Positions 20,891-56,761 of a stretch of 64,000 nucleotides of DNA are shown one piece after another (positions within the stretch are counted from its first letter, which is position 1; each line of letters starts with the position of its first letter). The position numbers were made by a program, and so were the translations under genes. The notes beneath the pieces are model-generated. The model was given only the letters and a program-made list of their open reading frames with translations. It did no database searches and was not told where the DNA came from. Origin of the DNA: Sulfuricystis thermophila (GTDB lineage: Bacteria; Pseudomonadota; Gammaproteobacteria; Burkholderiales; Rhodocyclaceae); NCBI RefSeq assembly GCF_004323595.1, contig NZ_AP019373.1, positions 2,418,001 to 2,482,000 on the forward strand. Direction: 5' to 3'.

Positions 20891-23269
20891 TTACACGGGA
20901 ACCCGCGTGGCGATCGTCTTGATGATCCCCCGCAGGTTTTCGAGCAGATGATCGCGTCTGGCCAGCATCTCGGGCAACAGCCCACGCGCCGTGACGAAAT
21001 CATCGCGTTCGATCAGCGTGACGATCCGGCGGCCGAGTGCGTGGATTTCCTCATGGCGGGCGTCGATGGCCGCGAATTCCGGCAACTTGCCGTACCGTCT
21101 GCGGCCTTCGCCATGCAGCCAGATGCCGAAGCGGCAGGCTCGCGGATCGAGCGGGATCTGTTCGGCCCGATACGGTTCACGTTTCTCGACGCACGCCACC
21201 AGTCTTTCAACCCAGCGGCGATGGTCGACCGCGGCGGTGATGAGCGGCAGGTCGGTGCGCGGCAGCACATGTCCAGAAGCCTCGCGCAGCGCAGCATGCG
21301 GTTGCCAGGCGGCAATCCAGCCGGGCAGCGCCGCAGGCGGCATCGGCCGTGCGATGCCATAGCCTTGTACCCGATCACAACCGAGATGCAGCAACATCAG
21401 CGCATGATCGAGGGTCTCGACGCCCTCGGCGATCACCTCGTCGCGGAAGGCCGTCGCCAGTCCGAGCACCCCTTCGACGATCGCCAGATCGTCCGGATCG
21501 TGCAGCATGTCGCGCACGAAGGACTGGTCGATCTTCAACAAATCGATCGGCAGCCGGCGTAGATAGGCGAGTGATGCATAGCCGGTGCCGAAGTCGTCGA
21601 GCGCGAATTTCACGCCCAGCGCGCGACACTGCTCCATGCGTGCCGAGACGCCGGCGACATCTTCGAGCGCCGCCGATTCCAGAACTTCGAGCTCGAAGCG
21701 CTGCGGCGGTGCCTGCGGATGACGCGCCAGCGCCGCGGCAAGGAAGTCCGCGAAGGCAGGCTGTTGCAGATGCACCGCCGGCAGATTGATGCTGATGCCG
21801 ATGTCGAGCCCCTGTGCCTGCCAGGCTTCCAGCTGCGTCAGCGCCGTATCGATCACCCATGCCGAGAGACGGATACTGAAATCGCGATCCTCGGCAGCGA
21901 GGGGGAGGAATTCGGATGGGCCAAGCAAACCGTGTTCCGGGTGCTGCCAGCGCAGCAGCGCTTCCACGCCGATGATGCGCATCGCGCGCAGATCGGCCTT
22001 CGGCTGGTAGTAAAGACGAAACTCGCCGTCTTCCAGCGCACGGGCGAGACGATCGAGGGCTTCCCGCCGCGCTTGTGTGTCGCGATCCTCGCTGGCGTCG
22101 AAGACGTGATAGCGGTTGCGCCCGGACTGCTTGGCGATATACATCGCCTGGTCGGCGTGACGGATCAGCGCATCGGCGGCGGCATCATCATCGGGAAAGA
22201 ACGTGACGCCGATGCTCGCCGAGAGGGTCACATGCTCGCCATCGATCGGATAGGGCTGCGCCAGCGCGGCGAGGACCCGCCTCAGCAGATGCAGATGATC
22301 GCTCGTGTCGTTCGTACCGGACAGCACCAGCACGAATTCGTCGCCGCCCAGCCGCGCGATGGTGTCGGTTTCGCGCAGAGTCGTGCGCAGACGGTTGGCG
22401 ACTTCGACCAGAACGAGATCGCCGACGGCATGCCCCCAGGTGTCATTGACTGGCTTGAAGCCGTCGAGATCGAGCAGCGCAACGGCGACACGACCGCCGT
22501 TGCGACGCGCCAGCGCCAGCGCCATCGTCAGGCGGTCGGCGAGCAGTGCCCGATTCGGCAGCTGGGTGAGCGTGTCGTAGTGAGCGCGTTTGATGAGACT
22601 GTCGGCCATGCGATTGAAGGCATCGGCGAGTCTGGAGAGCTCGTCGGCGCCGGACAGGGAGATGCGCGTGTCGAGCCGGCCAGAGGCCAGGCGCTGAGCG
22701 GCGCGTTCGAGCGTGCCAAGCCGGCGCGTGAGCCAGAAATCAAGGGGCAACAAGAGGGCGAGGCCGAGCAGGATGCCGATGAAGCCGATTTTCAGTAGCT
22801 CGGTGGTCAGGTGCTCACGCGCCTGCGCGATGAAGTGGAGCGCAATGCCGTAATGCAGCTCGCCAAGCGTCTGACCGGCGTATTCGATCGGCACGTGCAC
22901 ATGCCGCACGCCGTCTCGCTCTTCGCCAGACGGCGGCAATGCCACCTCGGCCGGCCAGCCGACTCGCGCGATCGTCCTTCCCTGGTGATCGAGAATCACC
23001 ATATGCGTCACGGTCCCCTGGGCAACGAAGCGCTCGGCGCTGCCTGCCAATGTCGCGTAATCGCGCTGCGCGAGCGGTAACGCGAGCGAGGCGGAAAGCA
23101 GCGTGTCGGTGCGCGCCACATGCGTCTGCAGCTGGCCGCGCAACTCTTCTTCGAGCAGGGTCCAGGTCTTCCAGACCAGCAGCCCGAGGAGGACGAGGAG
23201 CGCCGCCAGCGTCATGATGGCCAGCTTGGCGCGAAACGAGAAATGGGCGAAGCCGATCTGCATCTTCAC
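20891..23269 (-). CDS. membrane GGDEF-EAL protein with C-terminal CZB domain
   Basis: 792 residues. Membrane helix about 14-36, periplasmic domain to about 155 with the marker LPLAQRDYA near 64-72, second helix about 158-180, HAMP to about 232. GGDEF domain: RLGGDEF near 306-312 intact. EAL domain: GVEALLRW, DDFGTGYAS, LKIDQSF, AEGVET and QGYGIA all present. The last 100 residues match a chemoreceptor zinc-binding (CZB) domain: AAVDHRRWVERL, ACRFGIWLHGEG, then IDARHEEIHALG, giving the His/Cys/His/His set. It could make or degrade c-di-GMP, modulated by zinc and by the PhnD-type protein encoded 7 bases upstream. Confidence 0.88.
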   Translation of the reverse strand: MKMQIGFAHFSFRAKLAIMTLAALLVLLGLLVWKTWTLLEEELRGQLQTHVARTDTLLSASLALPLAQRDYATLAGSAERFVAQGTVTHMVILDHQGRTIARVGWPAEVALPPSGEERDGVRHVHVPIEYAGQTLGELHYGIALHFIAQAREHLTTELLKIGFIGILLGLALLLPLDFWLTRRLGTLERAAQRLASGRLDTRISLSGADELSRLADAFNRMADSLIKRAHYDTLTQLPNRALLADRLTMALALARRNGGRVAVALLDLDGFKPVNDTWGHAVGDLVLVEVANRLRTTLRETDTIARLGGDEFVLVLSGTNDTSDHLHLLRRVLAALAQPYPIDGEHVTLSASIGVTFFPDDDAAADALIRHADQAMYIAKQSGRNRYHVFDASEDRDTQARREALDRLARALEDGEFRLYYQPKADLRAMRIIGVEALLRWQHPEHGLLGPSEFLPLAAEDRDFSIRLSAWVIDTALTQLEAWQAQGLDIGISINLPAVHLQQPAFADFLAAALARHPQAPPQRFELEVLESAALEDVAGVSARMEQCRALGVKFALDDFGTGYASLAYLRRLPIDLLKIDQSFVRDMLHDPDDLAIVEGVLGLATAFRDEVIAEGVETLDHALMLLHLGCDRVQGYGIARPMPPAALPGWIAAWQPHAALREASGHVLPRTDLPLITAAVDHRRWVERLVACVEKREPYRAEQIPLDPRACRFGIWLHGEGRRRYGKLPEFAAIDARHEEIHALGRRIVTLIERDDFVTARGLLPEMLARRDHLLENLRGIIKTIATRVPV

Positions 23270-23276
23270 GGACGAT

Positions 23277-24161
23277 TCATGGCTGGCTCATCACGCGCCG
23301 CGTCTCCGGCAGGAAACGATCGAGCACGGCGAGCGTTTTCATCTCGGGCAGAGCGAATCCCATCTGACCGGATTCCTTGCCGAAGCGACGTCCTGCGGCG
23401 CTGTCACTGAATTCCAACGCCGCCTGCCTGATCGATTCCGGCGACGGCAGATCGGCGGCCGGCCGCATCATCAACATGCCGCCCGGCAGCGCTTCGGAGC
23501 GATACAGGATTTGTAATGTGTCGCGCAATTCGGCGGGCAGATCCGGCCAGGCCACATCCGGACAGGCCGCGGCGGCGGCCTCGCCGAGCGCCACTGCCTG
23601 GACGGCGTTGAACGGCGTCTTTTCGGTGCGCAAAATCACATCGCTGCCAGGCTCGAGGCCACTCTCGCGCAACACGGCCGCAGCCACCTGGGCGGTCACC
23701 GTGAGCGGGTCGATCGTCGCCACCGTCTTGCCGCGCAGGTCGGCAAGCTGGCGCATCGGCCCGCCCTTTGCCACCACCAGGTAAATCCTCAAGACCGCCT
23801 TGGCGACCGCCAGCACGAGATGGTGGCGATCGCGATGCGTCTGCCAGCCGGGGCCGGGACCGATGAAGTAGATGTCGAACTCGCCGTCGAGCGCGCGACG
23901 CTGGAAGGTCTTGAAATCGGGCGCGGTCGACAGCGCGACCGGCCGCTGGAAGACCGCCGCGAAATGTGCACGCAACGGCTCGAAGATGGTCAGCAGTCGG
24001 GCAGTCGGCAGATAGGGCACGACGCCGAATTCGAGCGGCCGCTCCCGGGCGAGTGGCCCGGCACCGCGGCTCTGACGGGCGAGCACGGCCAGCGCCACGC
24101 CCAGCGATGCCGTGAGCATGCACCGGCGCGTTGGGTCGATTTCGGGCCTCCTCCCTGCCAT
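23277..24161 (-). CDS. PhnD-type periplasmic binding protein (module 1)
   Basis: 294 residues with a Tat-like leader (DPTRRCMLTASLGVALAVLA). The PhnD-family fold follows: LEFGVVPYLPTARLLTIFEPL, FDIYFIGPGPGW, LRGKTVATIDPLT and AVQAVALGEAAAA. The family binds phosphonate, phosphite or other oxyanions for ABC import, but no permease or ATPase is nearby. The downstream gene is a membrane GGDEF-EAL protein, 7 bases away, so this more likely delivers a ligand signal to that protein's periplasmic domain. Confidence 0.82.
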   Translation of the reverse strand: MAGRRPEIDPTRRCMLTASLGVALAVLARQSRGAGPLARERPLEFGVVPYLPTARLLTIFEPLRAHFAAVFQRPVALSTAPDFKTFQRRALDGEFDIYFIGPGPGWQTHRDRHHLVLAVAKAVLRIYLVVAKGGPMRQLADLRGKTVATIDPLTVTAQVAAAVLRESGLEPGSDVILRTEKTPFNAVQAVALGEAAAAACPDVAWPDLPAELRDTLQILYRSEALPGGMLMMRPAADLPSPESIRQAALEFSDSAAGRRFGKESGQMGFALPEMKTLAVLDRFLPETRRVMSQP

Positions 24162-24232
24162 GACGGCCTCCGCGTGAAGAATCGGAATTCCGTAATCATA
24201 GCCGGAATTGCGCGGAAGGCACCTGCCAGGGG

Positions 24233-24256
24233 TGCCGTGCTGCCAGCGCCGACTTC
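24233..24256 (-). repeat. copy of the dispersed 24-bp motif at a gene 3' end
   Basis: On the minus strand reads GAAGTCGGCGCTGGC and then AGCACGGCA, 14 bases after the stop of the reductase gene, in its sense orientation. A short hairpin (GGCACC-N7-GGTGCC at 24219-24237) overlaps its end. Confidence 0.6.
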
Positions 24257-24270
24257 CGGGGGTCTATTGA

Positions 24271-25275
24271 CTACTTCGCCGCATAGGAAAACACGTCGGC
24301 GAAGAATTCCTCCGGCGGCAGCCCATGCGCGACGAAATCGCGCTGCGCCGCCTCGCACATCGCCGGCGCGCCACAGACATAAGCCTGATAGGCCGAGAGG
24401 TCGGGATGGTCGGCGAGCACGGCCTCATGGACCAGGCCGCTGCGGCCTGGCCAGTCGGCGTCCGGCTCGGAGAGCACCGGTGTGTAGGCAATGCCGTTTT
24501 CCCGTGCCCAGCGCTCGGCCAGCGCGTTCAGGTAGAGACCGGCACGGTTCTTCGCCCCCCAGTAAAGCTGCATGGGGCGTTTGATCCCGATGTGGAGCGC
24601 ATGCTCGATCAGGCCCTTGATCGGCGCGAAACCGGTGCCCCCGGCGACGAGCAAGATCGGCTTGGTGGAATCCTCGCGCAGAGTGAAGCTGCCGAACGGC
24701 CCTTCGATGCGCAGGATGTCCTTTTCCTTCATCTTCGTGAACACATGTTCGGTGAAATTGCCGCCCGGAATGTGGCGCACGTGCAGCTCGAGCAGGTCGT
24801 CGGCGTGCGGCGCATTGGCGAGCGAGAAGGCGCGGCGCTTGCCATCGGGCAGCAGGAATTCGATGTATTGACCGGCGAGGAACTGCAAGCGCTCGTTGGT
24901 CGGCAGCTTGAGATGAATCACCATCACGTCGGGGGCGACGCGTTCCAGTTTCTGCACGCGGCAGGGCAGGGTTTTCACCGGAATGTCCAGGACGCTGGCG
25001 ACCTCATGCACCTCGACGGTCACGTCGGTGAGCGGCTTCGCGCAGCACAACAGCGCCATGCCGGCGACACGCTCCGCGGCCGGCAGCGCGCTTTCCTGGG
25101 CGGCGCCGAGATCGACCGTCCCCCCGAGCACCTTGGCCTTGCAGGCGCCGCAGGCGCCGTTCTTGCAGCCGTAGGGCAGGTTGATGCCGGCATCGAGCGC
25201 GGCTTCGAGGATCGTGGCGCCGTCCGCGACGCTGAAAGAGTGGCCGCTGGGCTGAAGGGTGACTTGATGAGCCAT
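24271..25275 (-). CDS. ferredoxin-domain NAD(P)H:flavin oxidoreductase (AscD/CDP-deoxyglucoseen reductase type)
   Basis: 334 residues. The N-terminal plant-type [2Fe-2S] ferredoxin domain has YGCKNGACGACKAKVL near 35-50 and the fourth Cys in MALLCCAKP. The FAD domain has RAFSLANAP (RxxS). The NAD(P) domain has LLVAGGTGFAPIKGL and YVCGAPAMCEAA, ending in a short aromatic tail. Such proteins pass electrons from NADH through FAD and the cluster to a partner enzyme. No obvious oxygenase or dehydratase partner is adjacent. Divergent from the SDR gene across 14 bases. Confidence 0.85.
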   Translation of the reverse strand: MAHQVTLQPSGHSFSVADGATILEAALDAGINLPYGCKNGACGACKAKVLGGTVDLGAAQESALPAAERVAGMALLCCAKPLTDVTVEVHEVASVLDIPVKTLPCRVQKLERVAPDVMVIHLKLPTNERLQFLAGQYIEFLLPDGKRRAFSLANAPHADDLLELHVRHIPGGNFTEHVFTKMKEKDILRIEGPFGSFTLREDSTKPILLVAGGTGFAPIKGLIEHALHIGIKRPMQLYWGAKNRAGLYLNALAERWARENGIAYTPVLSEPDADWPGRSGLVHEAVLADHPDLSAYQAYVCGAPAMCEAAQRDFVAHGLPPEEFFADVFSYAAK

Positions 25276-25289
25276 GCGATAATCGTCCG

Positions 25290-26174
25290 GTGAGAAAAAG
25301 AAGATTGTTGATCGTCGGTTGCGGGGATGTCGTGCGGCGCGCGCTGCCCTGCCTCGCGCGTCGCTGGCAGATCACCGCGCTGGTGCGCCACTACGACCCC
25401 GGCCTTAGTAGCCACGGGGTACGGCAGATCGTCGGCGATCTCGACCAACCGGAGAGCCTCGCGCGGCTCGCAGGCCTCGCCCACGCGGTGCTGCACAGTG
25501 CGCCGCCCCCCGGCGAAGGCAACGACGACCCGCGCACCCGTCATCTCCTCGCAACGCTGGGAAGAGCGCGGAGTCTACCACGCAGGCTGGTCTACATCAG
25601 CACCAGCGGCGTGTATGGCCCCTGCGGTGGCGAACGTGTCACCGAGACACGCCGCCTGGCCGCCGCCACCCCGCGCGCGCGCCGCCGTGTGGCGGCGGAA
25701 ACCCGGCTGCGTGCCGCCGGCCGACGCGGCATCCGGGTCAGCATTCTGCGCGCGCCCGGCATCTATGCCGCCGACCGGCTACCGCTGGAACGCGTGCGAC
25801 GCGGCGATCCGGTGCTGCTCAAGGACGAGGACTCCTTCACCAACCACATCCACGCCGAAGACCTCGCCGCCGCCTGTTGCGCGGCGCTGGAGCGCGGCCG
25901 GCCGAACCGCAGTTACAACATCAGCGACGACTCGGACATCCGCATGGGTGACTGGTTCGACAAGCTCGCCGATGCGTTCCGGCTGCCCCGCCCGCCGCGC
26001 GTGACACGCGCCGAGGCGCAGACCCGTCTGTCGCCCCAACTGCTGTCCTTCATGAACGAGTCGCGCCGGCTCGACAACACGCGCATGAAGCGCGAGCTGC
26101 GGCTGAAACTTCGCTATCCCACTGTCGATGCCGGCATCGAAGCTGCCTCGAGGAATCCGCCATGCTGTGGCTGA
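25290..26174 (+). CDS. NAD(P)-binding epimerase/SDR-like protein (YeeZ type)
   Basis: 294 residues from a GTG. Rossmann start RRLLIVGCGDVVRRALPCL (GxGxxx). YISTSGVYGPCGGE has a Ser/Tyr pair as in extended SDRs, but the typical YxxxK is not preserved, since RRRVAAE follows. RVSILRAPGIYAADR and FTNHIHAEDLAAACCAAL match the YeeZ-like NAD-dependent epimerase group. Substrate unknown. Unusually Arg-rich. The last 13 bases overlap the hemJ start. Confidence 0.78.
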   Translation: MRKRRLLIVGCGDVVRRALPCLARRWQITALVRHYDPGLSSHGVRQIVGDLDQPESLARLAGLAHAVLHSAPPPGEGNDDPRTRHLLATLGRARSLPRRLVYISTSGVYGPCGGERVTETRRLAAATPRARRRVAAETRLRAAGRRGIRVSILRAPGIYAADRLPLERVRRGDPVLLKDEDSFTNHIHAEDLAAACCAALERGRPNRSYNISDDSDIRMGDWFDKLADAFRLPRPPRVTRAEAQTRLSPQLLSFMNESRRLDNTRMKRELRLKLRYPTVDAGIEAASRNPPCCG

Positions 26175-26578
26175 AAGCTTTTCACATCTTCTTCGTCGTC
26201 TCCTGGTTCGCGGGACTGTTCTATCTGCCGCGCATCTTCGTCAATCTGGCGATGGTGCCGATAGAGAGCGCGCCCGAGCGCGAACGCCTGCTCGTGATGG
26301 CCAGAAAGCTCTACAAATTCGTCACGCCCATCGGCCTGCTGGCAGTCATCACCGGCCTTGCCCTGTGGTTCGGTTTTGGCTTTTCCGGTGGCTGGCTGCA
26401 CGTCAAGACCACGCTGGTCGTCGGCCTGCTCGCCTATCACTTCTACTGCGGCCATCTGCTGCGGCAGTTCCAGGCGGGCAGCAATACGCATTCGCATGTC
26501 TGGTATCGCGTCTTCAACGAGCTGCCGGTGCTGGTGCTGCTCGCGGTCGTGATCCTCGTCGTGGTGAAACCGTTTTGA
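26162..26578 (+). CDS. hemJ: protoporphyrinogen IX oxidase, HemJ type
   Basis: 138 residues with four membrane helices. The HemJ pattern is clear: MLWLKAFHIFFVVSWFAGLFYLPRIFV with the conserved His near residue 8, KLYKFVTPIGLLAVITG and the conserved Lys in WLHVKTTLVVGLLAYHFYCG near 80. Oxidises protoporphyrinogen IX to protoporphyrin IX at the membrane in heme synthesis. It overlaps the upstream SDR gene by 13 bases. Another heme gene, hemE, is in this window at 46-47 kb. A hairpin and duplicated repeats follow. Confidence 0.88.
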   Translation: MLWLKAFHIFFVVSWFAGLFYLPRIFVNLAMVPIESAPERERLLVMARKLYKFVTPIGLLAVITGLALWFGFGFSGGWLHVKTTLVVGLLAYHFYCGHLLRQFQAGSNTHSHVWYRVFNELPVLVLLAVVILVVVKPF

Positions 26579-26640
26579 GGCGCAGGGCCGTTCCTGACCG
26601 CGAGCACGGTGACCGCGCAGAACGCGGCAGCGGCGACGCC

Positions 26641-26665
26641 GTGCCGCCCCAAGCCGGGGCGGCAC
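26641..26665 (+). terminator. hairpin downstream of hemJ
   Basis: GTGCCGCCCC pairs with GGGGCGGCAC around AAGCC, 62 bases after the hemJ stop and directly before the first 108-bp repeat copy. No U-run; possibly part of the repeat element. Confidence 0.45.
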
Positions 26666-26673
26666 GCGCCGGA

Positions 26674-26781
26674 GGCGCAAACCGCGACGCAGCGGCTTTG
26701 ATGCCACCCTCATTTTCAGGCGCCGCAAGGCGGCGCGTGCTGATAAGAACCCCCCGCGAGGGGGGCGAAGGGGGGAGGGCC
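26674..26781. repeat. 108-bp direct repeat, copy 1
   Basis: Identical over 108 bases to 26848-26955, offset 174 bases (58 codons, so reading frame is kept). It contains GGCGCCGCAAGGCGGCGC and CCCCCCGCGAGGGGGG palindromic segments, an ATG at 26701 and an open frame reading MPPSFSGAARRR on the plus strand. It looks like a dispersed intergenic element of GC-rich proteobacteria. Confidence 0.85.
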
Positions 26782-26847
26782 GATATCAGCAAACACACGG
26801 CAGCGCCGCCGACGGGCCGCCCCGAGGCGGCGCGGCATGCGCAGCAA

Positions 26848-26955
26848 GGCGCAAACCGCGACGCAGCGGCTTTGATGCCACCCTCATTTTCAGGCGCCGC
26901 AAGGCGGCGCGTGCTGATAAGAACCCCCCGCGAGGGGGGCGAAGGGGGGAGGGCC
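26848..26955. repeat. 108-bp direct repeat, copy 2 (carries the rlmL start)
   Basis: Second copy of the 108-bp unit. Its end abuts codons HFFATCPRGLEALL, the normal beginning of RlmL-type proteins, and it contains the candidate rlmL starts (ATG 26875, GTG 26911). Between the copies are 66 unrelated GC-rich bases with an imperfect hairpin. Confidence 0.85.
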
Positions 26956-28098
26956 CATTTCTTCGCCACCTGTCCGCGCGGGCTGGAGGCGCTGTTGGCG
27001 GAAGACATCATCGCCGCCGGAGGCACGGAAGTAGCTGTAACGCCCGGCGGCGCGGGATTTTCGGGCAGCCAGGAAACCTGCTACCGGCTGAACCTCCATT
27101 CGCGCATCGCCACGCGGGTACTGTGCCGTCTCGGAAACAGAGAGTGTCAAAACGAGCAGGACATCTATCGGCTGGCCTACGGGATCGCCTGGCCGAAACT
27201 GTTCGATGTCTCACGCAGCATCCGCGTCCATGTCACCGCGGTCAAGGCGCCGTTCCGGAGCCTCGAATACCTCACGCTGAAGGTCAAGGATGCCGTCTGC
27301 GACCGTTTCCGCGCCGATGTTGGCCGCCGGCCCGACGTGAATACCGCCGCGCCCGACGTGCGCATCCACCTCTACGTCACGGCCAATGAGGCCACGCTCT
27401 ATGTCGATACTTCGGGCGAACCGCTCTGGCTCAGAGGCCAGAAGATCGCCAAGGTGGCAGCGCCGCTCAAGGAAAACCTCGCTGCCGGCATCCTGCGCTT
27501 GAGCGGCTGGACGCCGGGCACCCCGCTGCTCGATCCGATGTGCGGTTCGGGCACCCTGCTGCTCGAAGCCGCCGGGATGGCGCTCGATGACGCCCCGGGC
27601 TTGTCGCGCGCGATGAAGGATTTCGGCTTCACGAAACTGCTCGACTATCAGCCGGCACTGTGGAAGCGGCTGTGCACCGAGGCGGCCGCACGCCGCCAGA
27701 CAGCGGAGAAACTACCCATCTGGGGGGCGGACAACGACGCGGATGCCGTGGCGCGCGCGCGGCAGAACCTCGCCCATGCCGGCCTCGATCGCCTGATCGA
27801 GGTGAAACACGCCGACATTCTCGACCTCACTCCACCGGCGCCGAGCGGCGTGCTGGTCAGCAACCCACCGTATGGCGAGCGGCTCGGCGAGCTCGACGCG
27901 CTGGCGGCTTTCTATCCGCGCCTCGGCGATGCGCTCAAAAAGCGCTTCGCCGGCTGGTACTGCTGGTTTCTCTCGGCGGATGCGCGCCTGCCTAAGCTGA
28001 TCGGCCTGCGGCCGGATCGCAAAATTCCGCTCTTCAACGGCGCGCTCGAGTGCCGGCTCTATGGCTTCAGGATCGTCGCCGGCAGCGCACGCAAATGA
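26875..28098 (+). CDS. rlmL: 23S rRNA guanine-N2 methyltransferase, RlmL N-half (YcbY) type
   Basis: 407 residues from ATG 26875. The conserved part begins at HFFATCPRGLEALLAEDI near residue 28. It has a THUMP region to about 190 and a methyltransferase domain with LLDPMCGSGTLLLEAA (SAM motif) and VLVSNPPYGERLG (NPPY catalytic motif). It corresponds to the N-terminal half of E. coli RlmL, which makes m2G2445. No native start codon precedes the conserved part: the 5' end lies inside the 108-bp repeat, with ATG 26875 or GTG 26911 the likely starts. The frame stays open upstream through the first repeat and into hemJ, but those codons look non-native. Confidence 0.85.
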   Translation: MPPSFSGAARRRVLIRTPREGGEGGRAHFFATCPRGLEALLAEDIIAAGGTEVAVTPGGAGFSGSQETCYRLNLHSRIATRVLCRLGNRECQNEQDIYRLAYGIAWPKLFDVSRSIRVHVTAVKAPFRSLEYLTLKVKDAVCDRFRADVGRRPDVNTAAPDVRIHLYVTANEATLYVDTSGEPLWLRGQKIAKVAAPLKENLAAGILRLSGWTPGTPLLDPMCGSGTLLLEAAGMALDDAPGLSRAMKDFGFTKLLDYQPALWKRLCTEAAARRQTAEKLPIWGADNDADAVARARQNLAHAGLDRLIEVKHADILDLTPPAPSGVLVSNPPYGERLGELDALAAFYPRLGDALKKRFAGWYCWFLSADARLPKLIGLRPDRKIPLFNGALECRLYGFRIVAGSARK

Positions 28099-28101
28099 TG
28101 G

Positions 28102-28590
28102 CTATTTGCTGAACAGGGGCAGGAGGTACTGCCAGACGAGATACAGAACGAGCAGGACGATCGCCAGCTTGCCCACCATGGAGAAGAACCCGCCGCTGCT
28201 TTCTCCGCTGTGCTGAACGTGGGTCACCGGCTGAGGCTTGACACCGATCTCCCGCTCTTCGCGGGCGATGCCGTCCCGCGCCACGAGGGGATCGAGCGGG
28301 TCGCCCAGATCCGCGCCGCGGTCCTGTTTGTCGACCTTTTGATAAGCCTCGCGCAGTGGTATCTGCAGTTTGCGCGCGAGATCGATGGCGCGGATCAGCT
28401 TGTTGATCTCGGCGAGGAACAGCAATTCAGCCGTCACCTCGACGGGGAAACCGCTGCGTTGGCCATCGCGCGTATCCGTCATCAAGTGCGTGATGTACTG
28501 GTCGAGATCGTGGGTGCCCCACAGCATGCAGATGCGATTGCGCACGTGCGGGAAGGCTTCGATGGCGCTGGCTTCGCTGGCTGGCTTCAT
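28102..28590 (-). CDS. hypothetical protein with C-terminal membrane anchor
   Basis: 162 residues. The N-terminal part is soluble and charged (ICMLWGTHDLDQYITHLMTD, VEVTAELLFLAEINKLIRAI). A polar linker follows, then one C-terminal helix (MVGKLAIVLLVLYLVWQYLL) ending FSK: a tail-anchored topology. I do not recognise the family. It lies 20 bases downstream of pilU on the same strand, so it may be co-transcribed with the pilus motor genes; a link to twitching motility is only positional. Confidence 0.6.
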   Translation of the reverse strand: MKPASEASAIEAFPHVRNRICMLWGTHDLDQYITHLMTDTRDGQRSGFPVEVTAELLFLAEINKLIRAIDLARKLQIPLREAYQKVDKQDRGADLGDPLDPLVARDGIAREEREIGVKPQPVTHVQHSGESSGGFFSMVGKLAIVLLVLYLVWQYLLPLFSK

Positions 28591-28610
28591 GGTCGGGCGT
28601 CCTGAACGGG

Positions 28611-29747: not shown

Positions 29748-29752
29748 GCGCT

Positions 29753-30796: not shown

Positions 30797-30863
30797 GTGA
30801 GAAACGCTCCGTGCGACCGGTCAGGCCGGTTCGGTATACTGATTTCAGCAATTCAAACGCTAT

Positions 30864-34034: not shown

Positions 34035-34051
34035 GCATCAGGCTGCGTTAT

Positions 34052-34234: not shown

Positions 34235-34326
34235 TTATTCATCACGCTGTCGGCAGTTTTTACATTTTCTTGTCTGATAGCAACAGGAGAACACCATAGG
34301 CATTGTTTTGATTATTTTTTTACATT

Positions 34327-34343: not shown

Positions 34344-34399
34344 TTCCTTCATTGGGCTTTCCAGAGATGCTTCCCTGGAGGCAAAATTGGGAGAAGACT

Positions 34400-43559: not shown

Positions 43560-43670
43560 GGTGTCCTCTTATCCCCGCTTGCCGATTCGCTCGCCCGTTT
43601 ATGGCGAAAGTCGAATGTTACGCTCGTTCGAAGGCGTCTGGCGTTTGAAAAAATCGCCGAGAGTGTCCAT

Positions 43671-47079: not shown

Positions 47080-47179
47080 TTTCGAGAATCCCCTATGGAG
47101 GAATCGAATTATCGCATGCCAACCTCGCCGAAATCGCGGACAATCCGGAACGTGCAGCAGCGTGAGAAAGGGGGCTTTC

Positions 47180-48322: not shown

Positions 48323-48329
48323 AGCGGCA

Positions 48330-48905: not shown

Positions 48906-48928
48906 AAGTCGGCGCTGGCGAAACGGCT
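48905..48928 (+). repeat. copy of the dispersed 24-bp motif between convergent stops
   Basis: AAAGTCGGCGCTGGC and then GAAACGGCT. It begins on the last base of the Gdt1-like gene stop and runs into the trkH stop, filling the whole 21-base gap. Sense to the plus-strand gene. Confidence 0.6.
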
Positions 48929-50381
48929 ACTTCTTCCAGAAGGCGGGCGTCAGCACGACGAGCAAAGTGAAGATTTCCAGCCGGCCGAGCAGCATCGCGA
49001 AAGTGCACACCCAGGTCTGGAAATCGCTCAGCGAGGCAAACGTCGTCGCCGGGCCGACGTCGCCGAGGCCGGGGCCGGTATTGTTGATGCTGGCCACGAC
49101 GGCCGAAAACGCCGTGATGCTGTCGAGCCCCGAAAAGGACAGCACCAGCGTCAGCGTCGTCACCGCCACCATATAGACGAAGCCGAAGGCGAGCACCGCG
49201 AAGAGGATCTTGGCCTCGACCGGCGTGCCGCCGATGCGCACCAGCCAGACCGCCTTCGGGTGCATCGCGCGCATCAGCTCGCGATAGACCTGCTTGAAGA
49301 GGATGATCGCGCGCATCATCTTGATGCCGCCGCCGGTCGAGCCGGCGCTGGTCGCGAAGCTGCACAAAAACAGCATCCACAGCGGCACGAAGGACGGCCA
49401 GAGCGCATAGTCGGTGTTCGCATATCCGGTGGTCGTGGCGATCGAGACGACATTGAAGGCGGCAAAGCGCAGCGCCGTCGGGAAATCAGCATAAACGTCG
49501 TGTGCGTAAAGATAAAGCGCGATGCCGACGATGCTGCCCAGCACCACGGCAAAATACCAGCCAACCTCGGGGTCATGCCGATAGGGCCGCAGACTGCGGC
49601 CATGCACGGCGAGGAAGTGGGTGGCGAAGTTGATGCCCGCCAGCAGCATGAAGACGATCGCCACCGCTTCGACCGCCGGTGAATTCCAGTAGCCGAAGCT
49701 CGCGTCGTGGCTGGAGAAGCCGCCCAGCCCCATCGTCGTGAAGGCATGCACCACGGCGTCGAACCAGTCCATCCCCGCCCAGCGATAGCCGAGCACGCAG
49801 GCGAGCGTGATGCCGGCATAGACCGCCCACAGGCCTTTCGCGGTATGCGTCATGCGCGGCGTGAGCTGGGCATCCTTCATCGGGCCGGGCGTCTCGGCCT
49901 TGAACATCTGCCGGCCGCCAATGCCGAGGAGCGGCAGCACCGCAACCGCCAGCACGATCAGCCCCATGCCGCCCAGCCAGACCAGCATGCCGCGCCAGAG
50001 GTTGATCGACCGCGGCAGCGTGTCCAAATGATCGAGCACGGTCGCCCCAGTCGTCGTCAGTCCGGAAACGGCTTCGAAATAAGCATCGGTGAATGAGATG
50101 TGCAGGTGAAAAATCAGCGGCAGGCAAGCGAATGCAGGAAACAGGGTCCACACCATCACCACCAGCAGGAAGCCATCGCGCACCTTGAGCTCGTTCCTAT
50201 CGCGGTGCGTCAGCCACCAGAGCCACAGGCCGCTGGCCAAGGTGGCCAGGAAGGCTTCGTCGTAGGCCGAACTCGCGCCATCCTGCCACAGCCAGGAAAG
50301 CAGCAGGGGCACCAGCAAGGTGAACGAGAAGCCCGTCAGCAGCACGCCAAAGACGCGGATTACCGGGTAAAAACGTTTCAT
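48927..50381 (-). CDS. trkH: Trk potassium uptake channel subunit
   Basis: 484 residues, about ten membrane segments with four selectivity-filter repeats (AVSGLTTTGATVL, HAFTTMGLGGFSSHDAS, IATTTGYANTDYALWP, SINNTGPGLGDVGPA), the Gly-centred filters of TrkH. SSAGSTGGGIKMMR is also typical. Inner-membrane K+ translocating subunit gated by TrkA, encoded just upstream. Last gene of the ntr-trk block. Confidence 0.95.
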   Translation of the reverse strand: MKRFYPVIRVFGVLLTGFSFTLLVPLLLSWLWQDGASSAYDEAFLATLASGLWLWWLTHRDRNELKVRDGFLLVVMVWTLFPAFACLPLIFHLHISFTDAYFEAVSGLTTTGATVLDHLDTLPRSINLWRGMLVWLGGMGLIVLAVAVLPLLGIGGRQMFKAETPGPMKDAQLTPRMTHTAKGLWAVYAGITLACVLGYRWAGMDWFDAVVHAFTTMGLGGFSSHDASFGYWNSPAVEAVAIVFMLLAGINFATHFLAVHGRSLRPYRHDPEVGWYFAVVLGSIVGIALYLYAHDVYADFPTALRFAAFNVVSIATTTGYANTDYALWPSFVPLWMLFLCSFATSAGSTGGGIKMMRAIILFKQVYRELMRAMHPKAVWLVRIGGTPVEAKILFAVLAFGFVYMVAVTTLTLVLSFSGLDSITAFSAVVASINNTGPGLGDVGPATTFASLSDFQTWVCTFAMLLGRLEIFTLLVVLTPAFWKK

Positions 50382-50399
50382 GGCGACAGTTTGCTCTGC

Positions 50400-51791
50400 T
50401 CAGAGAAACTGGAAGCCGACCTGGAACAGCTTCTCGACCTGCGCGACCTCGCGCTTGCGCATGCAGAAGACGATCACGTGGTCGTCGGATTCGATCACCG
50501 TGTCATGGTGGGGAATGATGACGCGTCCGCCCTCTCCGCCAGAATCCTGGCGCACGATGGCGCCGATGTGCGCGCCGCGGATCTTCGGCAATTCCTCGAT
50601 GCGCCGGCCGACCACCTTCGAGGTCTTGCGGTCGCCGTGGGCGATCAGCTCGAGCGCCTCGGCCGCACCGCGCCGCAGGCTGTGCACCCGCGCGACGTCG
50701 CCGCGCCGCACATGGGTGAGCAGCGGGCCGATCGACACCTGGGCGGGTGACATGCCGATGTCGATCGGCCCGCCCTGCACCATGTCGGCATAGGCGCGGC
50801 GGTTGATCAGCGCCAGCACACGCTTGCAGCCGAGTCGCTTGGCCAGCGACGCGGCCATGATGTTGTCCTCGTCGTCGTTGGTCAGCGCCAGGAACATGTC
50901 GATCTCGTCGATGTTTTCCTGGATCAGCAGATTCTCGTCGGTGGCTTCGCCATGCAATACCAGCGTATTGGCGAGCTTGCCGGCGATCACTTCGGCGCGC
51001 CGGCGGTCGACCTCGATGAGCTTCACTTCGTAGCGGGTTTCCAGCGTGCGCGCCACACGCAGGCCGATATTGCCGCCGCCGGCGATCATCACGCGCTTGA
51101 CCGGCTCGGTGCTGCGGCGCAATTCGGTGAGCACCAGCCGGATGTACTGACTGTCGGCGACCAGAAACACCTCGTCGCCCTGCTCGATGACCGTGTCGCC
51201 GTCGGGATCGACCGGCTGGTGCTCGCGGAAGATCGCGGCGATGCGCGCATCGACACCGGGCGGCAGGTGGTCGCGCATCGCGCGGATCGGCTTGCCGACC
51301 AGAAGCCCACCCTGCTTGGCGCGCACACCGACCAGCGTCACCTTGCCGGCGGCGAATTCGAGCACCTGCAGCGCGCCGGGAAACTCGATCAGCTTGGCGA
51401 TGTAGTCGGTGATGTCCTGCTCCGGACAGATCGCATAATCGACGGCGAAGTTGTCGTTGGAGAGCAACACCGGGTCGAGCAGATCCGGCGAACGCAGACG
51501 CGCGATGCGCGTGGTGACGGAAAACAGGCTACGGGCGATCTTGCAGGCGACCAGATTGGTCTGGTCGGACTGGGTCACCGCGACGAGCAATTCGGTATCT
51601 TCGATGCCGGCTTCACGCAGCACCGACGGGTAGGCGGCATTGCCGGCCACCGTGCGCACGTCGAGCCGGTCGGCGAGCGCAGACAACGCCTGATGATCCT
51701 GATCGACGACGGTGATGTCGTTGGCTTCCGAGGCCAAGGCCTCGGCAACGGAGGCGCCGACCTGGCCGGCGCCGAGGATGAGGATCTTCAT
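50400..51791 (-). CDS. trkA: Trk system regulatory subunit, NAD-binding
   Basis: 463 residues in two RCK halves: MKILILGAGQVGASVAEALA and VMIAGGGNIGLRVARTLE, each a Rossmann NAD(H) site, each followed by a TrkA_C domain. Peripheral subunit that gates TrkH. Its ATG overlaps the ntrX stop (ATGA), so K+ uptake genes are coupled to the NtrX-like regulator, as in several betaproteobacteria. Confidence 0.96.
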   Translation of the reverse strand: MKILILGAGQVGASVAEALASEANDITVVDQDHQALSALADRLDVRTVAGNAAYPSVLREAGIEDTELLVAVTQSDQTNLVACKIARSLFSVTTRIARLRSPDLLDPVLLSNDNFAVDYAICPEQDITDYIAKLIEFPGALQVLEFAAGKVTLVGVRAKQGGLLVGKPIRAMRDHLPPGVDARIAAIFREHQPVDPDGDTVIEQGDEVFLVADSQYIRLVLTELRRSTEPVKRVMIAGGGNIGLRVARTLETRYEVKLIEVDRRRAEVIAGKLANTLVLHGEATDENLLIQENIDEIDMFLALTNDDEDNIMAASLAKRLGCKRVLALINRRAYADMVQGGPIDIGMSPAQVSIGPLLTHVRRGDVARVHSLRRGAAEALELIAHGDRKTSKVVGRRIEELPKIRGAHIGAIVRQDSGGEGGRVIIPHHDTVIESDDHVIVFCMRKREVAQVEKLFQVGFQFL

Positions 51792-53044
51792 TCTTCTTCT
51801 TTGGTGGCGTTGCGCAAGCCCAGGTCTTTCAGCTTGCGATAGAGGTGCGTGCGTTCGAGGCCGGTCTTTTCGGCCAGCCGTGTCATGCTGCCGCCATCGA
51901 CGCGCAGATGGTGCTCGAAGTAGAGCTTCTCGAACAGCTCGCGCGCCTCGCGTAGCGGCAACTCGAACATTTCCGGCAGCAGGCCGGGCGGTATCTCGGC
52001 AATCTCCGGGCGCCCGGGCGCGAGCAGATGGTTGACATCCTCGGCGCCGATTTCATCGTCGAGCGCAGCGAGCGCCAGCGACTTGAGCACGCTGCGCAGC
52101 TGCGGGTAGCCCTCCGGCCACGGATACTGCCGCAACGCATTCTGGGCGGCGACGGACAGGTGACGCACCGGCACTTCACCGCTCTCCGCCAGTTGCGCCA
52201 GCAGGTGGGTGGCGAGATCGGGAATCTCGTCCTTGAGCTCAGCGAACGACGGCAGACCGATGCTGACCTCGAACAGGCGGTCGATGACATCAGCATCCCA
52301 GCCGTGCTCGATGAGTACGCTGGCGGTGTGTGTCGTCGCGGTGACGAGGCGCAGGTTGTGCCGTTCGAGACGTTCGAACGCGAAGGCAAGGTTCTTCTGC
52401 TGCAGGCGCGTCATTTTCGCCAGCTCGCTGCAATACAGCACCCCGCCGCTCGCCTGGGCGAGAGAATCGAGCGAGATCGGACTGGAGTCCTGGCCGAGAT
52501 CGACCCAGGGCTTGCCGGGAATCTGCAAAGTGTGCGCGGCGAGTTCGACGATCGAGGCTGGCGGCGCGCGCAGCAGCACCGAGCGACTCTTGGCCGCCAC
52601 CTGTTCGAGGCGGCGGCGCAGGTCCTTGAGCAGTGCCGAACGCGGGAAGGCAGCCAGGGTGAGCACCGAGCCGGTTTTGGGATGATGCTCGAGCCCCTGC
52701 TTCACCGCGGCGAGCAGCTTCTGCATGCTGATCGGTTTTTCCAGGAAGCCGACCGCGCCGATCTTCGTCGCCTCGACGGCGGTCTCGATCGTCGCATGGC
52801 CGGACATCATCACCACCGGCATGTTGAGCTTGCCGGCCGCCGCCCATTCCTTGAGCAAGGTCACACCATCGGTATCGGGCATCCAGATGTCGAGCAACAC
52901 GAGATCGGGGCGATGACTGTCGCGGCAAGCGCGCGCCGCAGTGGCATTCTCCGCCGTGACGACATCGAAACCCTCGTCGGTGAGGATTTCACGGAGCAAT
53001 TCGCGGATGCCGACTTCGTCGTCGATGACCAGGATTTGCGACAT
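51788..53044 (-). CDS. ntrX: NtrX-like response regulator with degenerate AAA+ domain
   Basis: 418 residues. The receiver is intact: ILVIDDEVGIRELL, LVLLDIWMPDTDG (Asp near 52), VVMMSGHAT, GFLEKPIS. The middle aligns with an AAA+ sigma-54 activator domain but lacks the Walker A GE-x-G-x-GKE (LLRAPPASIVELAA instead) and GAFTGA loop. A trace of the Walker B region remains as SGGVLYCSEL. The Fis-type HTH is retained (GSMTRLAEKTGLERTHLYRK near 385-405). It should bind DNA in a phosphorylation-dependent way but not remodel RNA polymerase-sigma-54. Partner kinase NtrY is encoded upstream beyond two inserted genes. Confidence 0.85.
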   Translation of the reverse strand: MSQILVIDDEVGIRELLREILTDEGFDVVTAENATAARACRDSHRPDLVLLDIWMPDTDGVTLLKEWAAAGKLNMPVVMMSGHATIETAVEATKIGAVGFLEKPISMQKLLAAVKQGLEHHPKTGSVLTLAAFPRSALLKDLRRRLEQVAAKSRSVLLRAPPASIVELAAHTLQIPGKPWVDLGQDSSPISLDSLAQASGGVLYCSELAKMTRLQQKNLAFAFERLERHNLRLVTATTHTASVLIEHGWDADVIDRLFEVSIGLPSFAELKDEIPDLATHLLAQLAESGEVPVRHLSVAAQNALRQYPWPEGYPQLRSVLKSLALAALDDEIGAEDVNHLLAPGRPEIAEIPPGLLPEMFELPLREARELFEKLYFEHHLRVDGGSMTRLAEKTGLERTHLYRKLKDLGLRNATKEEE

Positions 53045-53116
53045 GGCTACAGATTATCCCGAAAATCAAAACCACCATGAAAGAAGTAGGCCGTGCATTT
53101 GCTTTTCCGACATCGG

Positions 53117-55885
53117 TCAACGCGCCGGCATGGCCAGCCGCGCCAGGAATGCCGTCACCGGTTGCGGCCGGCCAAACAAGTAACCTTGGAAATGATGGCA
53201 GCCATTGTGTTTGAGCCAGGTGAGTTGTGCCTCGGTCTCGACGCCTTCGGCGACGACTTCGAGGTGCATCTGCCGGGCGATCAGCAGGATGGTCTTCGAC
53301 AGCGCGGCATCGTCGGCATCCTGCGGCAGGCCGGCCACGAAAGCACGGTCGATCTTCAGCTCCTGGAGCGGCAGACGCTTCAGATAGGAGAGGGACGAAT
53401 AGCCAGTGCCGAAATCGTCGATCGAGAAACGGATACCGAGCGCCTGAAGCTCATGCATGCGCGCCGTCGCCTCGCCGAGATCGGTAAGCAGGAGGTTCTC
53501 GGTGATTTCGAGTACCAGCCGCAGAGGGTTTGCGCCGGTTTCGGCGAGTATCGTGCGCACCCGGGCGACGAAATCCGCCTTGCGGAACTGACGCGGGCTG
53601 ATGTTCACGGCGAGCCGCAGATCGTGGCCGGCCTCTTCCAGCGCCTTGAGCAGCATCGCCGCCTTGCGCAGCACCCACTCGCCGAGCTCGTCGATCAGAC
53701 CACTTTCCTCGGCGAGCGGAATGAAGGAGGTCGGCGGTACCAGTCCACGGCGCGGATGGGGCCAGCGCAGCAGAACCTCGGCGCCCTTGAGGCGTCCCTC
53801 CGCATCGTGCTGCCCCTGCAGGTAAAGCTCGAATTCTTCGCTGGCGATCGCGGCGTGCAGGTCGTTTTCGAGTGCCAGACGTTCTTCCACCAGCGACTGC
53901 ATCGCCGGCTCGAAGAAGCACACGGCATTGCGACCACCTTCCTTGGCCTGATACATCGCGGTATCGGCATGGCGCAGGATAGCCTCGCAGTTTTCGCCGA
54001 CTCCATCGGGAAACAGGGTCAGACCGATCGACGCCCCGAGGTGGCAAACCCCGCCGACCTGACCGAGCTCGAAGGGCTGAGAGAGCGCCAGCCGCAGCTT
54101 GTCGGCGACATGCCTCGCGGCAGCGGCAGCGGTTGCCGCATCGGCAGCGAGACCGGGCAGCAGGACGACGAATTCGTCGCCGCCGAGACGCGCGACGGTA
54201 TCCACCTCGCGCAATAGGCCTTTCAGGCGTGCTGCGGTTTCACGCAACACGGCATCGCCCGCGGTATGACCATGGGCATCGTTGATCTGCTTGAAATGGT
54301 CGAGATCAATGAACAAGAGCGCACCGTGATGACCGTTGCGGCGCGCCTCGGCAAACTCGCGTTCGAGACGGTCGAGCAACAAACGACGGTTGGGCAGATG
54401 AGTGAGCGGATCGTAGAACGCAAGCCGTTCGATCTCGTCCTGCGCGGCATGCCGTTCGGTGATGTCCAGATGCGTGCCGGTGATGCGCAGCGGCCGCCCT
54501 TCGGCATCTCTCGCCGTTACCCGGCCGCGGGATAGGATCCAGCGCCACTGCCCGTCCTTGCCGCGCATACGAAATTCGGCCTCGTATTGCGGTAGGCGTC
54601 CTTCGAGGTGATCCTTGAACGCGCGTTTCGCACCCGACAGATCGTCCGGGTGGATCAGTGCGATCCAAGGATCGGCGAGTGCGGCGAAATCTTCTGGGCG
54701 ATAGCCGAGCATGCCCGCCCAGCGCGCGTCGACGACGAGGGCGCCCGTCGTCAGGTCGCGATCCCATAGACCAAGGTTCGCGCCTTGGAGCGCCAGCGCC
54801 AGGCGGGTACGTTGGGCATCGAGATCGGCGCGCAGGCGATAGGACTCTGAAACGTCGCGGAACACCATCACCACGCCGATCAGCTGACCCGTGCCATCGC
54901 GGATCGGCGCCGCACTGTCGGAGATGTGGTAACGCCGGCCGTCTTTCGCCACCAACACCGTATGATTGGCCAGGCCCACTACCAGCCCCGTTTCCAGCAC
55001 GCGCCCGACCGGGATTTCCGCCGGCTGCCCCGTCAAGGCGTGTTCGATCTTGAAGATCTCGGCAATGCTGCGGCCGCGCGCTTCGGCTTCGGTCCAGCCG
55101 GTCAGCGCCTCGGCCACCGGATTGAGGTAGGACACGCGCATCGTCGCATCGGTCGTCACCAGGCCATCGCCGATGGACTGCAGAATCGCCGTCACCTCGC
55201 CTTCGCTGGCTGCGAGCTCCTGCACGGTCTGCTGCACGGTCTCGGCCATGCGGTTGAAATCGTGGGCGAGCCGGCCGATCTCGTCTTGCGTTTCATCTTC
55301 CACCCGCGCTTCGAGCCGGCCGGCAGTGATCTCGTGGGCGGTCGCGGCGAGCCGTGCGAGTCGACGCGTCAGTCGCCGGGAAAGGATGCGGAACAACACC
55401 GTCACCAGCGCCAAGGACAGCATTGCGGTGACGAGCATGGCCAGTCCCATGCGTTCCGACAATGCAGCGAAGCCGCCGGCGCCCAGACGCAGATGCACCC
55501 GGCCGAAACTCACACCACTCTCTTCGAGCTCGAAGATACTGTCTTTGCCGAAAGGTGATCGATTCGCTTCGTGCGCTTCGGCCACCATGGTGCCATCGTT
55601 CGAAACCACCTCGATCGCATCGATTGCGTCGCTCTTGATCAGTGCCTGTGCGATCTCGCGCACACTGGCGTAGTCGCGCTCGACCATCGGCCCGGTCAGC
55701 GCCGCGGCGAGCAGTGGCCGCAGCGTCGTTTCCTGCTGTTCGATACCGCGCTCGGCAGACCAGCGCAGCAATGCGAGCATCATCGCACCGAAAAGGAGCA
55801 GACCCAACAACGATGCGAACGCCGCCAAGAGGCTCAGCTTGTGGCGAATCGGCAGATCAGCAAAAAAACCTGACCGGCGGGACAC
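53117..55885 (-). CDS. membrane HAMP-PAS-PAS-GGDEF-EAL protein (module 2)
   Basis: 922 residues. Membrane helix about 16-41, periplasmic domain with the marker PMVERDYA near 66-73, second helix about 130-155, HAMP to about 210. Two PAS domains follow (about 220-340 and 350-470, the second with a PAC segment), then GGDEF (RLGGDEFVVLL intact) and EAL with EVL at its first position (GAEVLLRW), INISPRQF-like VNISPRQF, DDFGTGYSS, LKIDRAF, AEGVET and QGYLFG. Could be a dual c-di-GMP enzyme. The periplasmic domain resembles that of the 20.9-23.3 kb protein, and a PhnD-type gene abuts it in the same order. Confidence 0.9.
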   Translation of the reverse strand: MSRRSGFFADLPIRHKLSLLAAFASLLGLLLFGAMMLALLRWSAERGIEQQETTLRPLLAAALTGPMVERDYASVREIAQALIKSDAIDAIEVVSNDGTMVAEAHEANRSPFGKDSIFELEESGVSFGRVHLRLGAGGFAALSERMGLAMLVTAMLSLALVTVLFRILSRRLTRRLARLAATAHEITAGRLEARVEDETQDEIGRLAHDFNRMAETVQQTVQELAASEGEVTAILQSIGDGLVTTDATMRVSYLNPVAEALTGWTEAEARGRSIAEIFKIEHALTGQPAEIPVGRVLETGLVVGLANHTVLVAKDGRRYHISDSAAPIRDGTGQLIGVVMVFRDVSESYRLRADLDAQRTRLALALQGANLGLWDRDLTTGALVVDARWAGMLGYRPEDFAALADPWIALIHPDDLSGAKRAFKDHLEGRLPQYEAEFRMRGKDGQWRWILSRGRVTARDAEGRPLRITGTHLDITERHAAQDEIERLAFYDPLTHLPNRRLLLDRLEREFAEARRNGHHGALLFIDLDHFKQINDAHGHTAGDAVLRETAARLKGLLREVDTVARLGGDEFVVLLPGLAADAATAAAAARHVADKLRLALSQPFELGQVGGVCHLGASIGLTLFPDGVGENCEAILRHADTAMYQAKEGGRNAVCFFEPAMQSLVEERLALENDLHAAIASEEFELYLQGQHDAEGRLKGAEVLLRWPHPRRGLVPPTSFIPLAEESGLIDELGEWVLRKAAMLLKALEEAGHDLRLAVNISPRQFRKADFVARVRTILAETGANPLRLVLEITENLLLTDLGEATARMHELQALGIRFSIDDFGTGYSSLSYLKRLPLQELKIDRAFVAGLPQDADDAALSKTILLIARQMHLEVVAEGVETEAQLTWLKHNGCHHFQGYLFGRPQPVTAFLARLAMPAR

Positions 55886-56761
55886 TCAAGATTCCTCGTG
55901 CATCTGGCGATACAGTTCGACCACCAACGGATCGATCCCCTGCATTTCAGCGTCGGTGACCGGCACCAGCCCCTGATGACCGAGGGAAGCGATGAAGGTT
56001 TGGCCGCTTGGCTGCGCGGCAAAGTCGAACAGCGCCCGGCTGAGCGCTTCTGCCTTGTGAGCCAGCCGGGGTGACACATGGTAGATGACGGCCGCCAGGC
56101 CACGCCCCAGCGGCATCAGCACCCGAACCTTCGCCGCCAGCGCGGCATCGACCTGGGCGAGCGTGGTGCGCGAGACGATCGCCGCCTCGACGTCACCGAC
56201 CAGCAGGCGTTGCAGTGAATTGGCATGCGTGCCGGTGGTGACGAGGCGGAAATCGCGGCCGGCGATGCGTCCCGCGTCGCGCAGAAAACGCAAGCCGATC
56301 ACTCCCAGCGAGGCGACGCGGTCGGTGACCGCGATGGCGACCGCTCCCCATTTGAAATCCTTGAGACTCTTCTCTGGCACATCTGCACGCACGACGAGCA
56401 CCGGCTCGAGCGGCGCCTGAGTGCGCACGAGCGGCACATGGCCGAGCTCGCGCTGGGCGAGGCGAGCATGAATCATCGCATCGGCGACGATATCGTAGGC
56501 ACCGGCACGCATGCGGACGAGATGCTCTGCATAGTTCGGCGCGCTGGCAAGATCCACCTTCTGCCCCAGAACACCCTCGATGACCGGCAGCAGCGGGGAA
56601 TAAAAGCCGACGAGCCGGCGCGCCGGCAAATAGGGCACGATGGCGAATACCGGCCGCTCGCCGGCGCGCACCGCGGCGGGCAGCCATCCGGTTGCGGCGG
56701 CAGCGAGCGCGCCAGCCAGAAATCGGCGGCGTGGGAAGGAAGGATCACAGTGCATCGGCAT
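55886..56761 (-). CDS. PhnD-type periplasmic binding protein (module 2)
   Basis: 291 residues with a Tat-like leader (SFPRRRFLAGALAAAATGWL, AVRAGERP cleavage region). PhnD fold: FAIVPYLPARRLVGFYSPLL, YDIVADAMIHARLAQRELG, WGAVAIAVTDRVASLGVIGL, QRLLVGDVEAAIVSRTT. No transport genes nearby. It overlaps the end of ntrY by 17 bases and stops one base before the GGDEF-EAL gene begins, so the pair is translated together. Probable ligand-delivering partner of that enzyme; ligand unknown. Confidence 0.82.
   Translation of the reverse strand: MPMHCDPSFPRRRFLAGALAAAATGWLPAAVRAGERPVFAIVPYLPARRLVGFYSPLLPVIEGVLGQKVDLASAPNYAEHLVRMRAGAYDIVADAMIHARLAQRELGHVPLVRTQAPLEPVLVVRADVPEKSLKDFKWGAVAIAVTDRVASLGVIGLRFLRDAGRIAGRDFRLVTTGTHANSLQRLLVGDVEAAIVSRTTLAQVDAALAAKVRVLMPLGRGLAAVIYHVSPRLAHKAEALSRALFDFAAQPSGQTFIASLGHQGLVPVTDAEMQGIDPLVVELYRQMHEES

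Follow-up and report, generated by a model that had tools for sequence, protein, structure and literature searches.

PhnD-family proteins paired with GGDEF-EAL enzymes in Sulfuricystis thermophila as probable bipartite periplasmic receptors

Introduction

XAC2383-XAC2382 of a plant bacterium is reportedly a bipartite receptor, composed of a PhnD-family periplasmic protein and a membrane enzyme with a Cache domain, and its study is said to report different output modules already. In LuxP-LuxQ, LuxP comes from another binding-protein family than PhnD, and the periplasmic part of LuxQ, a hybrid kinase, is larger. Here, we analyze 64,000 bases of the Sulfuricystis thermophila genome (the window; positions 2418001-2482000 of a single-contig complete genome of 2,737,315 bases), in which two genes for PhnD-type proteins (PhnD1 and PhnD2) each stand directly upstream of a gene for a membrane GGDEF-EAL protein (enzyme 1 and enzyme 2), a putative cyclic di-GMP (c-di-GMP) enzyme. 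According to PMC9602780, binding proteins can, as a general mechanism, stimulate diguanylate cyclases and phosphodiesterases. Among the domains of the periplasmic binding protein clan in GGDEF/EAL/HD-GYP proteins, an excerpt of a review on c-di-GMP sensing names only SBP_bac_3 as studied (PMC8846402). Among the papers that our literature searches listed, no title or abstract opening describes PhnD with GGDEF-EAL, and the sole precedent comes from the title of a PDB entry.

We propose, with a probability of about 0.85, that both pairs belong to the XAC2383-XAC2382 kind of two-part periplasmic receptor, in which the binding protein signals via the Cache domain to GGDEF-EAL. In the periplasm, the PhnD-family protein would enclose a small ligand and would dock, with or without it, on the Cache domain. 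The change would then travel through the second transmembrane segment and HAMP, shifting the balance between c-di-GMP synthesis and breakdown. Binding protein and Cache domain would form a single evolutionary unit for sensing, a cassette to which either GGDEF-EAL or a hybrid histidine kinase can be coupled. An initial annotation of this DNA had already read the PhnD-type proteins as sensors feeding c-di-GMP enzymes. Contiguity, a conserved receptor domain, co-divergence, phylum-wide linkage and fusions all support this idea; judged from these sequence comparisons, the annotation is right on structure and very likely right on function.

Results

Two PhnD/GGDEF-EAL pairs in the window

In both pairs, the PhnD gene comes first on the same strand as its partner (Table 1). 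The gap is 7 bases in pair 1 and 0 in pair 2, where the TGA of PhnD2 abuts the GTG start of enzyme 2. The pairs had been placed with correct coordinates, strands and gaps by the initial annotation, and Pfam confirms their domains, with GGDEF and EAL above the cut-off in both enzymes. Read by eye, the translation of enzyme 1 contains a GGDEF motif with RxxD and an EAL motif. The markers from which a shared periplasmic layout had been proposed, LPLAQRDYA at residues 64-72 of enzyme 1 and PMVERDYA at 66-73 of enzyme 2, are found at these positions (counted by eye), and Pfam bears out the described difference between the cytoplasmic parts, namely a CZB tail in enzyme 1 versus two PAS domains in enzyme 2. 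PhnD1 and PhnD2 score under the NCBIfam PhnD equivalog cut-off (30.6 and 22.0 versus 261.1 bits). When PhnD2 was compared with PDB sequences, two ArrX entries were the sole matches at E ≤ 0.01 (E 8e-4 and 1e-3).

PhnD genes are followed by signaling proteins across the family

Searches of 150 family genomes with PhnD1 and with PhnD2 (E ≤ 1e-10) each gave matches in 42 genomes. Together with five loci of the own genome and the two window pairs, the 67 distinct places found elsewhere make 74 loci. Directly downstream of PhnD, 38 loci encode an EAL protein, 26 a kinase/receiver protein and 10 no recognized partner. All 38 EAL partners carry GGDEF and EAL, 37 carry HAMP, and all 26 kinase partners carry HisKA and HATPase. 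The EAL partners share a layout of two transmembrane segments separated by ~120 residues. The gap between PhnD and partner lies between -20 and +25 bases in 60 of 64 cases, 30 of which are a 4-base overlap. Of the ten partnerless loci, L096, L129, L133 and L135 break off at the end of the contig, no more than 730 bases on, and in L133 and L141 a receptor-domain match follows right after the PhnD gene.

A second, less biased sample was drawn by searching PF12974 in 41 family genomes. This yielded 114 matches at E ≤ 1e-15, of which 79 were new, and every second one was taken (40 loci). A script classified 13 loci as having a kinase next to PhnD, three as having GGDEF or EAL next, nine as fusions to a kinase or GGDEF/EAL, nine as having an ATP-binding cassette (ABC) ATPase near, four as having signaling genes near and two as other. 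Transport loci were judged here by the ABC ATPase alone (the permease profile gave 0 hits). By eye, the ABC flag of L292 belongs to a UvrA-like protein, which leaves eight loci beside an ABC ATPase; in L273, classed as other, the ABC match overlaps its frame. According to Pfam, single-chain PhnD-PAS-GGDEF-EAL proteins occur in L286, L289 and L291, and PhnD-PAS-GGDEF proteins in L268 and L270. These natural fusions independently support that PhnD domains feed GGDEF and GGDEF-EAL outputs. A scan of named genomes added two loci with kinases, from a Burkholderiales metagenome-assembled genome (MAG) and Reyranella aquatilis; loci with GGDEF-EAL in a Rhodocyclaceae MAG and a marine-biofilm MAG were already in the set.

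The partners carry a predicted Cache-type receptor domain

The periplasmic domain of the EAL partners is predicted to be a Cache/PDC fold. The AlphaFold2 model of the enzyme 1 receptor domain has a pLDDT (predicted local distance difference test) of 94.3. Foldseek gave no match at E ≤ 0.001, the best being CdgS9 (3.3e-3). The Cache assignment is based on VIA-align Z (107-124 aligned residues), on Pfam Cache-type matches and on matches to PDB sequences of A5, a receptor profile built from 47 PhnD-linked rows. A5 matches 5o7j (E 8.4e-7), CitA (2.6e-4), DctB (0.022) and CdgS9 (0.064). At E ≤ 0.1, Pfam finds sCache_3_2 in 16 and CHASE8 in 15 of the 38 EAL partners. Against a profile made from the EAL-partner periplasmic segments alone, nine of the 25 kinase partners score 100-123 bits; three EAL proteins of this genome, taken as a control, score 13-18 bits.

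When A5 was run on the 150 family genomes (at most 28 candidates per genome scored), 104 genomes had a match at E ≤ 1e-5. Ninety matches reached at least 50.9 bits, two of them at contig ends, and a PhnD gene adjoins 60 of the other 88. By score, the share is 31/31 at ≥ 120 bits, 10/13 at 100-120, 5/9 at 80-100, 6/13 at 60-80 and 8/22 at 50-60 bits. The phylum sample is a better test of this linkage than the family score bins. Among 398 phylum genomes (at most 10 candidates per genome scored, E ≤ 1e-12), A5 gave 22 matches, 17 of them outside the genus, and PhnD lies directly upstream in 14 of these 17; three of the 14 belong to one genus of another family. Six family orphans of the receptor protein without PhnD (L194-L199) stand after argA-like genes, as judged by eye.

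Binding protein and receptor domain diverge together

For 37 PhnD/GGDEF-EAL pairs, the distances between PhnD proteins were compared with those between their partners: the correlation is r = 0.76 for the receptor domain and r = 0.51 for the GGDEF-EAL output, and the partial correlations are 0.70 and 0.33, respectively. For all 62 pairs, the correlation between PhnD and receptor is 0.71. For 60 of the 62 PhnDs, the nearest PhnD has an output of the same class. Even so, PhnD1-like proteins with kinase partners occur in L082 and L083 (41 and 38% identical to PhnD1), which suggests exchange of outputs.

The PhnD2-GGDEF-EAL pair stands between ntrY-like and ntrX-like genes (window 51788-58583). Three congeners were searched for this arrangement. 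The matched parts of the ntrY/ntrX-like genes lie ~300 bases apart in G019 and ~60 in G080, where the pair is absent, whereas in G126 they lie 3.7 kb apart with the pair between them. Within the genus, the pair has been gained or lost as a cassette.

Ligand pocket

Pocket residues S161, S163 and H192 of AioX, as given in an excerpt of PMC5908839, were used for comparison. Their positions were mapped by eye through an alignment, the register of which may be off by one column. Among 37 EAL-linked PhnDs, the S161 position is S/T in 17, the S163 position is S/T in 11 and the H192 position is H in 23; in PhnD1 the three are T, T and P. No ligand is proposed from the pocket, as the AioX oxyanion set is often incomplete and the columns vary. 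For the same reason, it would be unsafe to take the ligand for a phosphonate.

PhnD genes in the genome and features of the window

The PF12974 profile matches 12 places in the genome, nine of them at ≥ 101 bits. Compared with the 17 EAL places, these give three PhnD-EAL pairs, the third having its PhnD match at genome positions 794849-795559 and its EAL match at 797278-797976. Thus, of the initial statement that the system appears twice in 64 kb, both window pairs are real, and the genome-wide count is three. The nine confident PhnD genes comprise three with GGDEF-EAL, three with an adjoining histidine kinase (934427, 8702 and 33195), one kinase fusion in the window and two in tandem (1261375/1262147). 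The fusion had also been described initially, as a third PhnD-like domain, and is present; its coordinates in Table 1 count from the most upstream start. It scores below the TtrS equivalog cut-off (NF040750; 350.7 versus 750 bits).

Table 1. Coordinates of the genes and domains discussed, in positions of the window
Feature	Position	Strand	Remarks
PhnD1	23277..24161	-	PF12974 127.7 bits (cut-off 27); Tat-like leader, RR at residues 12-13
Enzyme 1	20891..23269	-	transmembrane (TM)-Cache-TM-HAMP-GGDEF-EAL-CZB; Pfam and hydropathy
Predicted periplasmic receptor (Cache/PDC) domain, enzyme 1	22799..23173	-	125 residues between two hydrophobic stretches (hydropathy only)
PhnD2	55886..56761	-	PF12974 101.3 bits (cut-off 27); Tat-like leader
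Enzyme 2	53117..55885	-	TM-Cache-TM-HAMP-PAS-PAS-GGDEF-EAL; Pfam and hydropathy
Predicted periplasmic receptor domain, enzyme 2	55448..55774	-	109 residues between two hydrophobic stretches (hydropathy only); A5 profile 87.5 bits (itself an A5 row); weak CHASE8 match (E 0.0063)
PhnD domain fused to histidine kinase, TtrS-like	12076..14016	-	most upstream start; PhnD 114.9 bits, HisKA, HATPase
LuxR/FixJ-type response regulator beside PhnD-kinase	11426..12115	-	FixJ 213.9 and TtrR 167.4 bits, both under cut-off

Several further loci were noted. A branched-chain amino-acid-type ABC system (window 15890-20886, named by eye) adjoins enzyme 1 on the opposite strand. Two PhnD-kinase-response regulator clusters (L012 and L013, at 5.9-14 kb and 28-37 kb of the genome) each lie beside a molybdopterin oxidoreductase gene; the oxidoreductases are PhsA/ArrA-like, below cut-offs, and the clusters resemble aio/arr/arx sensing sets. 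Tandem PhnD-family genes without a recognized signaling partner (L015:7328-9065; also L143) lie, by eye, near moaA/mobA-like genes, and a related single PhnD, in L292, lies near a uvrA-like gene. At genome positions 677766-681130 (L146:1767-5131), a Peripla_BP_4 gene (145 bits) overlaps a gene for a GGDEF-EAL protein that has a single-Cache domain. This is a fourth pair of neighboring binding-protein and GGDEF-EAL genes, with a binding protein unrelated to PhnD. At 450586-453411 (L150:1587-4412), a 142-residue protein is encoded 3 bases upstream of a GGDEF-EAL gene with ~117 residues between two TM segments. The small protein has a leader-like N-terminus, matches nothing in Pfam at E ≤ 0.01 or in NCBIfam at E ≤ 1e-10, and resembles by eye one lobe of a phosphate-binding-type protein.

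Discussion

The PhnD proteins could serve transport together with a permease encoded at another site of the genome, and the enzymes could adjoin them by coincidence or co-regulation. PF12974 is indeed named for ABC transport, and the eight sampled loci beside an ABC ATPase are likely transport loci. We nevertheless consider this highly improbable for the window pairs, given that 64 of the 74 loci have immediate same-strand partners of one architecture and that the nine confident PhnD genes have none of the 11 BPD_transp_1 permeases of the genome (the one permease family searched) in their vicinity. Such a permease adjoins just two weak PhnD matches (48 and 22 bits; 1966404 and 1118415). The window contains no BPD_transp_1 match, in line with the initial remark that it lacks a phn-type permease, and the clustering of PhnD with phn transport genes elsewhere in the genome, named at that time as counter-evidence, is not seen for any confident PhnD gene next to BPD_transp_1. 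A different objection is that a ligand is sensed by the Cache domain itself, with PhnD as an accessory, for instance a scavenger of the ligand or a competitor withholding it. The solved fold neighbors CitA, PctA/PctC and DctB bind ligands directly, according to PDB entry titles, and orphan receptor-domain proteins without PhnD exist. This explanation is unlikely in view of the strong co-divergence of PhnD and receptor, the natural PhnD fusions in which Pfam finds no Cache domain, and the reported precedents of LuxP-LuxQ and XAC2383-XAC2382.

Several observations weigh against the bipartite receptor that we favor. Between enzyme 1 and enzyme 2, the receptor domain is just 18% identical. With the EAL-partner profile, the relationship is less clear for 16 of the 25 kinase partners: eight score 19-58 bits, the lowest two (23 and 19) being close to the control, and eight are unreported, including the AioS-like partners in L012 and L013. 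The top score bins of A5 are circular, because the profile was built from PhnD-linked rows, and 28 of the 88 determinable family matches have no PhnD upstream, which implies that the receptor domain can work alone or with something else. The initial term "dedicated" therefore holds only in part: the domain is PhnD-linked in 60 of 88 cases and not equally often without a PhnD neighbor, the outcome named beforehand as speaking against it, and the same module is also found on some histidine kinases. Two of the nine PhnD genes of the genome (the tandem) have no signaling partner that we could find. Finally, physical linkage of neighboring genes may account for part of the co-divergence. Since receptor and output are encoded in one gene, the difference between their correlations is not easily put down to linkage alone.

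A broader generalization is offered tentatively, as somewhat less probable than its opposite. The PhnD fold in this family would mainly serve sensing rather than transport, the PhnD-Cache cassette would have been shuffled onto GGDEF-EAL and hybrid-kinase outputs, with PhnD also fused in single chains with a kinase or GGDEF-EAL, and many of these proteins would read ligands beyond phosphorus and arsenic oxyanions, with at least seven parallel PhnD sensors in one small genome. For annotation, the phosphonate-transport label often misleads in these genomes, as 8 of the 40 sampled loci lie beside an ABC ATPase versus at least 25 that are linked or fused to signaling genes. The pairs are natural swaps, with the same receptor domain and a different output, for mapping the control of c-di-GMP by binding proteins, of which few systems have been studied.

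Comparison with described systems

By the features that reportedly define the XAC2383-XAC2382 kind, the PhnD/GGDEF-EAL arrangement is not new and the window pairs are members of it. Shared features are the adjoining PhnD gene on the same strand, one periplasmic Cache-type domain between two TM segments and a cytoplasmic c-di-GMP module. The kind is also described by docking of the binding protein on the Cache domain with control of the enzyme, and by a phosphate-containing ligand; for the window pairs, the corresponding observations are the co-divergence of PhnD and receptor and the variable pocket columns. A5 matches the partners in L242-L244, the three phylum-sample loci from a genus of another family, at E 2.2e-13 to 3.7e-13. 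The PhnD of L243, the one of the three that was compared, is a close relative of XAC2383 (358 bits), and its partner is matched by A5 and contains GGDEF and EAL; XAC2382 itself was not compared. XAC2383 is distant from PhnD1 and PhnD2 (73 bits to the PhnD profile; PtxB, 150), and the window enzymes differ by the CZB tail of enzyme 1 and the two PAS domains of enzyme 2.

The AioX/ArxX/ArrX type with AioS-AioR has a kinase as output and not GGDEF-EAL, according to an excerpt of PMC5908839. The kinase output and response regulator of AioXSR are absent from the two pairs, both partners being GGDEF-EAL proteins, and the AioX pocket serines are retained in a minority of EAL-linked PhnDs. In the tetrathionate kinase TtrS, which the PhnD-kinase gene of the window resembles, a PhnD domain drives a signaling output; TtrS differs from the pairs as a single fused chain with a kinase output, and the window gene lies under the TtrS cut-off. 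NspS is a polyamine-binding (PotD-like) protein and not known as a PF12974 member; PhnD1 and PhnD2 match PF12974. In NspS-MbaA of Vibrio cholerae, a periplasmic binding protein reportedly controls a membrane c-di-GMP enzyme, as is proposed here for the window pairs.

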